This document shows positions 49,981-58,468 of a stretch of DNA of 64,000 nucleotides, piece by piece. The stretch lies in assembly GCF_006120725.1 (NCBI RefSeq), contig NZ_SWMU01000002.1, positions 434,001-498,000 on the forward strand, written 5' to 3'. Under the pieces are notes generated by a model that saw nothing but the letters and a program-made list of their open reading frames with translations, had not been told where the DNA came from and did not search any database. A program made the position numbers and the translations under genes. Position 1 is the stretch's first letter, and every line of letters starts with the position of its first letter. The stretch is from Mesohalobacter halotolerans (GTDB lineage Bacteria > Bacteroidota > Bacteroidia > Flavobacteriales > Flavobacteriaceae).

Positions 49981-50643
49981 CTAATTTGAAAACAAATCTT
50001 TTCTTGATATGATATTATTTAACATGACTTGCAGTTCACTTAACATCATAGCAGTTGCACCCCAAATGGTATAACCCTTAAGTTGATAGGACATCACTTG
50101 CCGTTTTCCAGCATAAGAAGTACGAATTGACCCTGTTTTTATATTTGATGGTTGCATAAAATCTTTGAGCTTTACAGGTATAATCTTTTCAACTTCAGAA
50201 ACTTGGCGTTCAAAAACTGGTGTGTAATCAACTTTGGCTAAAGTGGGTTGTACCATATAGTTAGAAGGCGGAATATAAAGTTCAGTCATAGGTCTTATAA
50301 CTTCAACAGTTGTAGCCTTCACTCCTATTTCCTCTTCTGTCTCCCGCAGTGCTGTTTCTATTAAATTTCCATCCTGTCTTTCAACTTTGCCTCCAGGGAG
50401 AGCCACTTGATTTGAATGCACACCTTTATAAGATTTTCTCAATATCAATACAAAGTGGGTTTCATTTTGGTGACCGGGATAAAATAAAACCATAACACCA
50501 GCTTTTTTGGCTTTATCAGTATTATAGCTTATTTCTAAAGATTCTTTTCTAAAATCAGGGGCTAATAAGATTTGAGCTTTTTGACCCGGTAAATCTATTT
50601 TTTTTATTTTTGGTAAAAATTGATTAAAATATGAAAATTGCAT
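49981..50643 (-). CDS. NUDIX hydrolase, CoA pyrophosphatase type
   Basis: A 220-residue protein with the Nudix box GGKVERQDGNLIETALRETEEEIG (about 92-115; key residues Gly, Glu and REx2EE) and the CoA-pyrophosphatase extension just before it (LRKSYKGVHSNQVALPGG). These enzymes cleave CoA to 3',5'-ADP and phosphopantetheine. Its start (MQFSYFNQFLPKIKK) overlaps by 13 bases with the divergent cyclophilin gene, so each gene's promoter must lie inside the other's coding sequence. It converges with crtY (47 bases). Confidence 0.93.
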   Translation of the reverse strand: MQFSYFNQFLPKIKKIDLPGQKAQILLAPDFRKESLEISYNTDKAKKAGVMVLFYPGHQNETHFVLILRKSYKGVHSNQVALPGGKVERQDGNLIETALRETEEEIGVKATTVEVIRPMTELYIPPSNYMVQPTLAKVDYTPVFERQVSEVEKIIPVKLKDFMQPSNIKTGSIRTSYAGKRQVMSYQLKGYTIWGATAMMLSELQVMLNNIISRKDLFSN

Positions 50644-53944: not shown

Positions 53945-53980
53945 CGCTTAGTGAAACCATTTTAATAGGATATGGTGGTG

Positions 53981-54105
53981 AGATGCTGAAACGAGTTCAG
54001 CAGGACATACTGAAAAGATGTTGAAACAAGTTCAACATGACAGTAGTTATCTACTGTCACCCTAAATTTATTTCAGGGTCAGGGTCTGGATCAGGGTCAG
54101 GGTCT
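53981..54105 (+). repeat. Left cluster of palindromic repeats, beside the GIY-YIG gene
   Basis: Two 27-base units (53981-54007 and 54016-54042), each AGATGYTGAAACRAGTTCARCAKGACA, with a 6-bp stem; the second changes C-G to T-A on both sides and so keeps its stem. Then a perfect 8-bp hairpin (GACAGTAG/CTACTGTC, 54039-54058), a partial ACCCT..AGGGT hairpin (54059-54079), and tandem AGGGTC copies to 54105. The last two parts also encode the nuclease C-terminus. Confidence 0.85.
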
Positions 54106-54401
54106 AAAGGTTTCCACAAATCTTTCCATTCTGGATTAACACTTTCAATCAAATTAATTTTCCATTGCCTATGCCAACGTTTTAATTGTTTTTCACGTTT
54201 TATAGCATAATTGGCATATTGAAACTCTTCTAAATACACTAACCTTTTCAGGTTATACTTTGCAGCGAACTTAGAACCTCTACCAGCTTTATGTCTTTCC
54301 ATTCTATCGTCGATGCCTCCTGTAAAACCAATATATAGTGTTCCTTTTGGTTTGTTTGTTATAATATATACCCAATACCTATGTATAAGTCGTTTAGGCA
54401 T
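54057..54401 (-). CDS. GIY-YIG domain nuclease, single-domain
   Basis: A 114-residue protein of the UPF0213-like small GIY-YIG group. The signature is YWVYIITN...LYIGFTG (about residues 10-28), with the catalytic Arg region DDRMERHKAG and Tyr/Lys pattern of the family; a Glu in the later helix (KREKQLKRW) would complete the site. The last 16 residues (a DP repeat followed by EINLG) are encoded by the AGGGTC/CAGGGT repeat DNA and look like an accidental C-terminal tail. It lies between two direct copies of a palindromic element. Family function is not settled; DNA repair or mobile-element roles are both suggested. Confidence 0.85.
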   Translation of the reverse strand: MPKRLIHRYWVYIITNKPKGTLYIGFTGGIDDRMERHKAGRGSKFAAKYNLKRLVYLEEFQYANYAIKREKQLKRWHRQWKINLIESVNPEWKDLWKPLDPDPDPDPDPEINLG

Positions 54402-54446
54402 CTCAGATTTGAATTATGAATTTTGATTTTAGGTAAAGGTAATAAA

Positions 54447-54660
54447 AGATGCTGAAATAAATTCAGCATGACATATGGGTTTGGGTCTTTGTTGTCGGTG
54501 GATGCTGAAACAAGTGGTCTTGGATCTATGATATCGAGAGATGATGAAATAAATTCAGCATGACATAAGGTTTGGGTTTGGTTATCGTAGATACTGAAAC
54601 GAGTTCAGCATGACAGTTTTGCCAAAAACTGTCACCCTGAATTTATTTCAGGGTCTAGGT
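54447..54660 (+). repeat. Right cluster of palindromic repeats, same family as at 53981-54105
   Basis: Four units: 54447-54473 (good stem), 54500-54515 (truncated), 54539-54565 (one stem mismatch) and 54589-54615. The last one runs into a perfect 9-bp hairpin (GACAGTTTT/AAAACTGTC, 54612-54633), then a perfect 8-bp hairpin (ACCCTGAA/TTCAGGGT, 54634-54654). This is the same order and orientation as in the left cluster, but the middle hairpin has a different stem sequence, still fully paired. Confidence 0.85.
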
Positions 54661-54672
54661 CACGGTCAGATC

Positions 54673-55062
54673 TTAATTCTGACGGTTTTTAGCTTCAATG
54701 CTTAAGGTAGCGTGTGGGACTAATTTTAAGCGTTCTTTCTGAATTAATTTTCCCGTCACTCGGCAAATCCCGTAAGATTTGTTTTCTATCCTGACTAAAG
54801 CATTTTTTAAATCTCTGATAAATTTTTCTTGACGGATAGCCAATTGAGAATTAGCTTCTTTACTTAAGGTACTACTACCATCATCAAAAGATTTAAAAGT
54901 TGGCGCGGTATCTTCTGTATCATTAGCACTTCCGTTCTTGTAAGCATCGATGTAGATGTTGAGTTGCTTCTCAGCATTTTTAATCTTGTCTTCAATAAGC
55001 ACTCTAAATTCTGCTAACTCAGCATCTGAATATCGTTCAGGTTGTTTAGTTGTCGTTGTCAT
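54673..55062 (-). CDS. DksA/TraR family protein with degenerate zinc finger
   Basis: A 129-residue protein with the DksA layout: two coiled-coil helices (about 12-90; ELAEFRVLIEDKIKNAEKQ, and IRQEKFIRDLKNALVRIENKSYG), and a C-terminal segment YGICRVTGKLIQKERLKLVPHA that is in place of the four-cysteine zinc ribbon. Only one of the four ligands (Cys) is left, as in some Bacteroidota homologues. DksA proteins bind the RNA polymerase secondary channel and act with ppGpp. Its start overlaps no gene; it ends the leftward ileS pair, one base after the ileS stop. Confidence 0.9.
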   Translation of the reverse strand: MTTTTKQPERYSDAELAEFRVLIEDKIKNAEKQLNIYIDAYKNGSANDTEDTAPTFKSFDDGSSTLSKEANSQLAIRQEKFIRDLKNALVRIENKSYGICRVTGKLIQKERLKLVPHATLSIEAKNRQN

Positions 55063-55063
55063 T

Positions 55064-58000
55064 CTATTTCTTTTTTAATGTTATAACGGTATGCACATCG
55101 TCAAATTCAATTTCTCTTCCGTTTTTGATTTGGTCTGCAAAAATAATGTTTTCAGTTAAAGTTTCTCTCTTGATATACGTTAAATTTTCTTCTACAGCGT
55201 TTATGATATTGTTATCATTCTGAATACTAATATCGATATGATCCGTCACGTTTAAATCAGAATCTTTGCGTAGGTTTTGAATTCTGTTGACCAATTCTCT
55301 CGCAATACCTTCATTTTTAAGTTTTTCGTCGATATGTATGTCTAAAGCAACTGTAATATTATTTTGAGAAGCGACTAACCAACCTTCTATGTCTTGTGAG
55401 GTAATTTCAACTTCATCAATACTTAAGGTTTCAGGGTTGCCATTAATTTCAACTTCAATCTGACCATCGCTTTCAATTTTTGCAATATCAGATTTAGTCA
55501 ATTGATTTACAGCTTTAACAGCAAACTTCATGTCTTTACCGTATTTTGGTCCTAAAACTTTAAAGTTTGGTTTTATGCTTTTAATGAGTAAATCAGAAGT
55601 ATCATCAATAAATTCGATGGTTTTGACATTAACTTCAGATTTAATTAAGTCTGCTACAGCTTCAACATCGGCTTTAAAATTTTGATCTAATACGGGTATC
55701 ATTATACGTTTTAAAGGCTGTCTCACTTTAATTTTTTCTTTTTTCCGTAAGGATAAAACTAAAGATGAAATGATTTGTGCTGTATGCATTTTTTCTTCTA
55801 GAGATTTATTAATCATAGAAGTATCAGCTTTTGGAAAATCTGCTAAATGCACACTTTCTGGAACGTCTTTATCTAAAACCGAAGTCAAGTCCTGGTAAAG
55901 TCTATCTGCAAAAAACGGTGCTACAGGGGCAATTAATTTTGAAATATCTAATAAACACGTGAAAAGTGTTTGGTAGGCAGAAATTTTATCCTGTTCGTAA
56001 TCGCCTTTCCAAAAACGTCTTCGGCTTAATCTGACATACCAATTTGATAAATTTTCTTGCACAAAATCTGAAATGGCTCTGGTGGCCTTAGTCGGTTCAT
56101 AATCTGCATAAAACGCATCAACATCTTGAATCAGCGTATGCAATTCAGATAAAATCCAACGGTCTATTTCCGGTCTTTGCTCGAGAAAAACATCGACTTC
56201 TTCATATTGAAAGTTGTCAATGTTAGCATACAATGTAAAGAATGAATAGGTATTGTAAAGCGTTCCAAAAAATTTACGTTGCACTTCTCCTATGCCGTTC
56301 AAGTCAAATTTGAGATTATCCCAAGGATTGGCATTGCTAATCATATACCATCGTGTAGCATCAGGTCCGTAAGTTTTTAAAGTTTCAAATGGATCTACAG
56401 CATTACCGAGACGTTTAGACATCTTTTGTCCGTTTTTGTCAAGAACCAATCCATTAGAAACCACATTTTTATATGCCACATCTTCAAAAACTAGTGTAGC
56501 GATGGCGTGAAGCGTATAAAACCAACCTCTTGTTTGGTCAACACCTTCAGCTATAAAATCGGCGGTCTTTTTTTTGTTTTCAACTTCTTTGGTGTTTTCA
56601 AAAGGATAATGCCATTGTGCATACGGCATTGAACCGGAATCAAACCAAACATCAATTAAATCGGGTTCTCGCTTCATCGGTTCGCCTTGATCTGAGACTA
56701 ATATAACGTCATCAACTATATTTTTGTGAATATCGACATCGGCATAATTTTCATCTGAAAAGTCATTAACCTTAAAATCAGCAAAAGGATTTTCTTGCAT
56801 TATACCGGCTTCTACTGATTTGTCTATTTCTTGTTTTAATGTAGAAATGGAATCAATAATTTTTTCTGCTTTGCCATCTTCTGTTCGCCATATCGGTAAT
56901 GGTATTCCCCAATAACGCGAGCGGGATAAGTTCCAATCATTGGCATTGGCGAGCCAGTTGCCAAAACGGCCTTCGCCTGTAGATTTGGGTTTCCAATTGA
57001 TGGTATTATTGAGTTCAACCATTTTGTCTTTAAACTCAGTAACTTTGATAAACCAGGAATCTAAGGGATAATACAAGATAGGCTTGTCTGTTCGCCAGCA
57101 ATTGGGATATGAGTGAAGGTATTTTTCGACTTTAAAGGCTTTGTTTTCTTCTTTTAATTTAATCGCTATTTCAACATCTGTAGACTTTTCAGGGGCTTTT
57201 CCGTCTTCGTAATACTCATTTTTGACATATTTTCCAGCAAACTCGCCCATCTCAGGTCTAAATTTTCCTTTTAAATCCACCAATGGCACGAGATTATCTT
57301 GCTCATCTTTAACAAGTAATCCTGGCACTTCAGGCTGCGCTTGTTTAGCCACCATGGCATCGTCTGCACCAAAGGTCGGTGCGGTGTGAACAATACCTGT
57401 TCCATCTTCAGTCGTAACGAAATCTCCGGCAATTACCCTAAAGGCATTCTCCGGATTGTGATAAGGTTTGGCATAAGGTAAAAGTTGTTCGTATTTTATT
57501 TCTAATAAATCTTCTCCTTTAAAAGCCTTTGTGATAAAATACGGGATTTTTTTATCAGTTGATTTAAACTCAGATAGCTTTTGCTCATCATCTACGGCAA
57601 CAAACTTTTTGCCAAATTCTTTTGACACTAAATCTTTTGCAATAATTACCGTGATTGGTTTAAATGTATATTGATTAAAGGTTTTTACAGCAACGTAATT
57701 TATTTTTTTACCAACGGTCAGCGCTGTATTACTTGGTAACGTCCATGGTGTGGTTGTCCAAGCCAAAAAGAAAATATCACCCTTGAATGTCTTAAGGCTT
57801 TCGGGCAAAGTGTCTTTAACTGCTTTAAATTGAGCGGTAACCGTTGTGTCTGATACATCCTGATAAGTCCCGGGTTGGTTGAGTTCGTGAGAACTTAAAC
57901 CTGTTCCTGCTTTTGGTGAATAAGGCTGGATGGTGTAGCCTTTGTAAATCAAACCTTTATTATAGATTTGAGCTAGCAGCCACCAAACGCTCTCCATATA

Positions 58001-58468
58001 TTTTGGCGTGTATGTGATATACGGATTATCCATATCTACCCAATAGCCAATTTTTTTGGTCAAGTCGTTCCAAACATCAGTATAACGCATGACGGTTTTT
58101 TTGCATGCGGCGTTATAGTCTTCTACCGATATTTTTTTACCAATATCTTCCTTGGTAATACCTAGTTCTTTTTCAACGCTTAATTCTACAGGTAAGCCAT
58201 GCGTATCCCAACCGGCTTTTCGATCTACACGATAACCTTTTTGGGTTTTGTATCGGCAAAAAATATCTTTGATAGTTCTTGCCATGACATGGTGAATTCC
58301 AGGTAAACCATTTGCAGATGGCGGGCCTTCAAAAAAGATAAAAGGTTTGTCTTCTGGTTTTTGGTCAACACTTTTTTTAAAAATATCATGTTTTTGCCAA
58401 TACGCCAATATGTCATTGGCAGTTTCTACCAAATTCAAGCCTTGATATTCCGGAAAGCTTTTGCCCAT
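55064..58468 (-). CDS. ileS: Isoleucyl-tRNA synthetase, IleRS2 type
   Basis: A 1,134-residue class I aminoacyl-tRNA synthetase. The nucleotide motif 'HIGH' is read as GIHH at residues 57-60 (PSANGLPGIHHVM), a swap of the first and third residues; the KMSKR motif is intact (GQKMSKRLGN). The editing domain lies in the middle. The sequence WFDSGSMPYAQWHYPFEN is like eukaryotic and IleRS2-type enzymes, in line with the length and the lack of the C-terminal zinc finger of IleRS1. IleRS2 forms resist mupirocin, and the swapped GxHH motif has been tied to very high resistance. The dksA-like gene follows in the same direction with a one-base gap. Confidence 0.95.
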   Translation of the reverse strand: MGKSFPEYQGLNLVETANDILAYWQKHDIFKKSVDQKPEDKPFIFFEGPPSANGLPGIHHVMARTIKDIFCRYKTQKGYRVDRKAGWDTHGLPVELSVEKELGITKEDIGKKISVEDYNAACKKTVMRYTDVWNDLTKKIGYWVDMDNPYITYTPKYMESVWWLLAQIYNKGLIYKGYTIQPYSPKAGTGLSSHELNQPGTYQDVSDTTVTAQFKAVKDTLPESLKTFKGDIFFLAWTTTPWTLPSNTALTVGKKINYVAVKTFNQYTFKPITVIIAKDLVSKEFGKKFVAVDDEQKLSEFKSTDKKIPYFITKAFKGEDLLEIKYEQLLPYAKPYHNPENAFRVIAGDFVTTEDGTGIVHTAPTFGADDAMVAKQAQPEVPGLLVKDEQDNLVPLVDLKGKFRPEMGEFAGKYVKNEYYEDGKAPEKSTDVEIAIKLKEENKAFKVEKYLHSYPNCWRTDKPILYYPLDSWFIKVTEFKDKMVELNNTINWKPKSTGEGRFGNWLANANDWNLSRSRYWGIPLPIWRTEDGKAEKIIDSISTLKQEIDKSVEAGIMQENPFADFKVNDFSDENYADVDIHKNIVDDVILVSDQGEPMKREPDLIDVWFDSGSMPYAQWHYPFENTKEVENKKKTADFIAEGVDQTRGWFYTLHAIATLVFEDVAYKNVVSNGLVLDKNGQKMSKRLGNAVDPFETLKTYGPDATRWYMISNANPWDNLKFDLNGIGEVQRKFFGTLYNTYSFFTLYANIDNFQYEEVDVFLEQRPEIDRWILSELHTLIQDVDAFYADYEPTKATRAISDFVQENLSNWYVRLSRRRFWKGDYEQDKISAYQTLFTCLLDISKLIAPVAPFFADRLYQDLTSVLDKDVPESVHLADFPKADTSMINKSLEEKMHTAQIISSLVLSLRKKEKIKVRQPLKRIMIPVLDQNFKADVEAVADLIKSEVNVKTIEFIDDTSDLLIKSIKPNFKVLGPKYGKDMKFAVKAVNQLTKSDIAKIESDGQIEVEINGNPETLSIDEVEITSQDIEGWLVASQNNITVALDIHIDEKLKNEGIARELVNRIQNLRKDSDLNVTDHIDISIQNDNNIINAVEENLTYIKRETLTENIIFADQIKNGREIEFDDVHTVITLKKK

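Follow-up and report, generated by a model that had tools for sequence, protein, structure and literature searches.

The window, by which we mean the whole 64,000-nucleotide stretch of DNA that was analysed, contains an ileS gene (Table 1), the product of which scored 984.9 bits against the TIGR00392 profile, compared with a cut-off of 621.4 bits. In this protein, the ATP-binding motif that is HIGH in canonical class I synthetases has its first and third residues exchanged, and is found in the context ...FFEGPPSANGLP-GIHH-VMARTIKD.... A sequence-only reading of this DNA had placed the swapped motif at residues 57-60 and had described the second signature motif, KMSKR, as intact. The coordinates and the reading of GIHH were both exact, and KMSKR was present. 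An alignment of 15 sequences showed G57, H59 and H60 to be invariant, which speaks against a chance occurrence or a sequencing artefact. lspA was not located beside ileS, and the lspA model gave a match below its cut-off on another contig. No Rfam or tRNA features were detected between positions 50000 and 64000.

Table 1. Features of ileS, its product and its neighbours, in positions of the window.
Feature	Residues	Position	Strand	Remarks
ileS, isoleucine--tRNA ligase type 2 (IleRS2)		55064..58468	-	1134 aa, ATG start; TIGR00392
GIHH, swapped class I HIGH motif	57-60	58289..58300	-	Read from the ORF
KMSKR, second class I signature motif, intact	682-686	56411..56425	-	Read from the ORF
WFDSGSMPYAQWHYPFEN	608-625	56594..56647	-	Contains HYPFE (620-624), eukaryote-like mark
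Class I catalytic core, PF00133	20-720	56309..58411	-	Pfam
Anticodon-binding domain, PF08264	769-920	55709..56164	-	Pfam
C-terminal domain, PF19302	940-1133	55070..55651	-	Pfam
Ser51, presumed place of E. coli IleRS Tyr59	51	58316..58318	-	Placed from E. coli sequence context
Ala63, putative place of IleRS1 Asn70	63	58280..58282	-	Motif plus 3 residues; inferred placement
Leu676, putative place of IleRS1 Phe586	676	56441..56443	-	Opposite a His in the alignment with P. megaterium IleRS2
dksA/traR zinc-finger protein		54673..55062	-	Directly downstream of ileS, same strand
GIY-YIG ORF		54057-54401	-	PF01541; downstream of ileS-dksA/traR

We compared the IleRS of the window with all solved structures in the PDB, using the data availability section of PMC10485003 for the identities of the chains. 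The four highest-scoring chains were those of Priestia megaterium (P. megaterium) IleRS2 (8c8w, 785 bits; 8c8v, 779 bits; 8c8u, 778.9 bits; 8c9d, 773.8 bits), and all four were matched up to their residue 1022. Of these, the highest-scoring one (8c8w) had been engineered to GVHH, and 8c8v, 8c8u and 8c9d carry HVGH. Cytoplasmic and other IleRS chains gave intermediate scores (539-677 bits), and the P. megaterium IleRS1 chains 8c9f and 8c9e scored 307 and 298.6 bits, with matches that stopped at query residue 894. Among solved structures, P. megaterium IleRS2 thus gave the best match, which spanned almost all of the protein. In contrast to the enzyme of the window, which has GIHH and is encoded by the sole ileS found, the natural P. 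megaterium IleRS2 carries HVGH, and its species also possesses an IleRS1. Another structure, 1ile, which we take to be Thermus thermophilus IleRS2, resembled the IleRS of the window in its type 2 catalytic core and in having Leu at the 676 position, but differed in its HVGH motif and in its chain, which is 821 residues long in the PDB entry.

Two further type 2 marks lie within the protein: HYPFE was present, and Ser51, rather than Tyr, stood at the presumed Tyr59 place. HYPFE and the lack of Tyr at that place have been described as marks of the eukaryote-like IleRS type (PMC4861432), and a zinc-binding motif in the C-terminal domain as a property of IleRS1 that type 2 enzymes lack (PMC10485003). 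The IleRS of the window had no Cys in residues 930-1134 and carried the PF19302 C-terminus. Thus, every mark tested assigns the enzyme to type 2, the eukaryote-like IleRS group. The IleRS2 and eukaryote-like features that had been claimed for it were upheld, as the PDB scores, HYPFE and PF19302 all agreed.

The same reading had noted that this was the only IleS in view. When all candidates in the organism's own genome (2.65 Mb, 99.99% complete) were scored, a single ileS exceeded the cut-off, and the observation thus extends to the whole genome. The next-best match to the ileS model reached 220 bits in an 884-aa frame, and the remainder were weaker. Judged by score and open-frame length, these matches look like ValRS, LeuRS, MetRS and CysRS, that is, other class I synthetases, and a second ileS in this genome was rejected.

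We then read the motif in a sample of 148 genomes of the phylum, including the window's own, which represented 82 genera and 33 families. The ileS region was obtained for all 148 genomes and could be read in one open frame in 147 of them. Every genome had GXHH (GIHH in 107, GVHH in 40 and GMHH in 1). Each also had one ileS match over the cut-off among the five or fewer candidates that were scored per genome, a depth at which a lower-ranked second ileS would escape. A further set of named loci was drawn from GTDB genomes with scan patterns from which the motif was absent. The best 80 of 589 such loci, which we assume from their titles to be Bacteroidota, were headed by Flavobacteriaceae and included gut and marine groups. 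GXHH was again found in 80 of these 80 (GIHH in 77, GVHH in 3); L241, an lspA locus with no IleRS, was excluded from this count. The two sets overlap, and L199 and G099:C32, for example, are seemingly one record. Neither HXGH nor an intermediate motif occurred among the 148 genomes or the best 80 of 589 named loci. The idea that the motif sets this organism apart was therefore not sustained, since GXHH was the only state in both sets. Its uniformity indicates that the swap is the inherited normal state of the group, and not specific to the organism.

A few ileS genes in these sets were irregular. In one genome (G067/L126), the only ileS found has an in-frame TAG, with GVHH read upstream of the stop; the TAG may be an assembly error, a pseudogene or a case of recoding. 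Two loci from genomes of the same family, L102 (G103) and L104 (G057), have an extra stretch near residue 299-305 and open frames of 1241 and 1177 aa, respectively. Both match only part of the ileS profile, because the extra stretch splits the match in two.

Ser51 presumably corresponds to E. coli Tyr59, a placement that we made from the E. coli sequence context. At this place, 110 of the 147 phylum sequences read had Thr and 37 had Ser. The 37 carriers of Ser51 coincided with the 37 loci belonging to the class of the window, without exception on either side. Tyr59 of the E. coli enzyme controls tRNA-dependent pre-transfer editing, and Phe or Thr is found there in eukaryote-like enzymes (PMC4861432).

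The link between the swapped motif and extreme mupirocin resistance in IleRS2, which the sequence-only reading had invoked, is a published one. Among 163 IleRS2 sequences, 86 had G/AXHH and 77 had HXGH, and the swap was absent from IleRS1 (Brkic et al. 2023, PMC10485003). G/AXHH was tied to a millimolar Ki for mupirocin in that report, and exchange of the motif in three enzymes moved the Ki by about 175- to 820-fold (PMC10485003, Table 1). Natural G/AXHH enzymes with Ki values in print, as far as these two sources show, come from two other bacteria: D. radiodurans, with ALHH and a Ki of 6.6 mM (PMC10485003), and S. griseus, with a Ki of 10 mM (PMC4861432). Engineered GVHH forms of the T. thermophilus and P. 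megaterium enzymes reached only 35 μM and 460 μM, respectively (PMC10485003), which suggests that the level of the Ki is not fixed by the motif alone. According to the structures in the same report, the third His occupies the place of the first His, which a displacement of the helix tip makes easier; the authors' model has the third His clashing with bound mupirocin (PMC10485003). The IleRS of the window shares the exchanged residues 1 and 3 and the type 2 character of the G/AXHH subclass, and nothing notable set it apart from this subclass when sequence features were compared. The strings 'Bacteroid' and 'Flavobact' do not occur in the main text of PMC10485003, although its tree may well include the group. 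Among the entries returned by a literature search, none was plainly concerned with kinetics or mupirocin MICs of this phylum.

In the enzyme of the window, position 1 of the motif is Gly and positions 3 and 4 are His, the pattern of the G/AXHH subclass. Two residues of IleRS1 have been implicated in binding the inhibitor, in that Asn70 contacts mupirocin and Phe586 stacks on it (PMC10485003). In the alignment with P. megaterium IleRS2, Leu676 of the window's IleRS stood opposite a His, which we took as His582 of PMC10485003. Leu occupied this position in all 80 of the best 80 of 589 named loci, and position 63 was Ala in 66, Gly in 8 and Ser in 6 of the same 80. Both IleRS1 contacts thus appear to be missing, with Leu676 at the place of Phe586 and Ala63 at that of Asn70, on placements that are partly inferred. 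Together, the swapped motif and the two apparently missing contacts make it likely that the target binds mupirocin very weakly.

The enzyme would be expected to make Ile-AMP and to charge tRNA-Ile as usual. By homology to P. megaterium IleRS2, His59 is predicted to stand in for the first His of the canonical motif and to serve in catalysis. The same residue should clash with mupirocin, which would bring the Ki into the upper micromolar to millimolar range, and the published effect of the swapped motif leads us to expect that the cell would be resistant. We hold it very probable that the gene encodes the housekeeping IleRS of the organism, a member of the type 2 G/AXHH subclass that charges tRNA-Ile and in which His59 is expected to clash with mupirocin.

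Because the same swap abolishes activity when it is introduced into IleRS1 (PMC10485003), we considered whether the enzyme might be degenerate and inactive, or the motif a sequencing error. This is extremely improbable: no ileS besides this one turned up in the genome, which is 99.99% complete, its frame is open over 1134 aa with KMSKR and the expected domains, and a motif of the same kind was present in 148 of 148 phylum genomes. An inactive copy or a sequencing error was rejected on the grounds of this uniformity and of the sole ileS. An acquired mupirocin resistance gene, a second ileS of the mupA or mupB kind, was given hardly any credence either. MupA and MupB are homologous IleRS enzymes, and their NCBIfam models did match the IleRS of the window, but the scores (758.2 and 764.8 bits, respectively) were far under the cut-off of 1900 bits, and the origin was rejected on that basis. 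Moreover, no other ileS was found in the genome, and one each was found in the 148 phylum genomes among the five or fewer candidates scored. There is no sign of an acquisition, a duplication or a special resistance in this organism. To judge from the sequences compared, the active site is inherited and probably mupirocin-insensitive, and not a resistance acquisition.

A different question is why the motif is there. It could be unrelated to mupirocin in this lineage, having been fixed in a distant ancestor, with resistance as a by-product. This proposal agrees with the housekeeping reading on what the enzyme is, and differs from it on the cause. The occurrence of GXHH as the sole state in the phylum sample, with its 82 genera and 33 families, and in the best 80 of 589 named loci, from gut and marine groups alike, is in its favor, since such uniformity is more readily explained by descent than by a single antibiotic having selected for the motif repeatedly in recent times. 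However, the motif itself has a published effect on mupirocin binding (PMC10485003), and ancient selection by mupirocin or a similar inhibitor could also have fixed it. On balance, we lean toward the by-product explanation. With somewhat greater assurance, we propose that GXHH is ancestral and universal in the only IleRS of Bacteroidota, and that the mupirocin-insensitive target is an inherited trait of the phylum and not the outcome of recent selection.

If this proposal is correct, the GXHH active site represents the normal class I synthetase chemistry of IleRS for the whole of Bacteroidota. The survey shows that so striking a deviation from the most familiar synthetase motif is commonplace in the phylum. 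The presence of GXHH in an IleRS2 is no ground for flagging an acquired resistance gene or an unusually resistant isolate. That about half of IleRS2 carry the swap (86 of 163) was already known (PMC10485003). What is new, as far as the main text of that paper shows, is the density of the survey, with GXHH in 148 of 148 genomes. The uniformity of the phylum sample also means that the reason why the swap was kept becomes testable with natural enzymes.

Beyond dksA/traR, we observed that imperfect inverted-repeat elements, of the TGAAATAAATTCAGCATGACA and TGTCACCCTGAATTTATTTCAGGGTC types, flank the GIY-YIG ORF on both sides (53980-54670). The sequence ACCCTGAATTTATTTCAGGGTC, with up to 2 mismatches allowed, has 2 copies in the genome, both of them in this interval. 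Four sub-patterns that we sought were absent from 11 of the 12 GIY-YIG loci checked (13 matches in all). A looser form of the inverted-repeat element gave 8 matches, 4 of them at 53980-54670, and the tail of the GIY-YIG ORF, DPDPDPDPDPEINLG, is coded largely within one such element.
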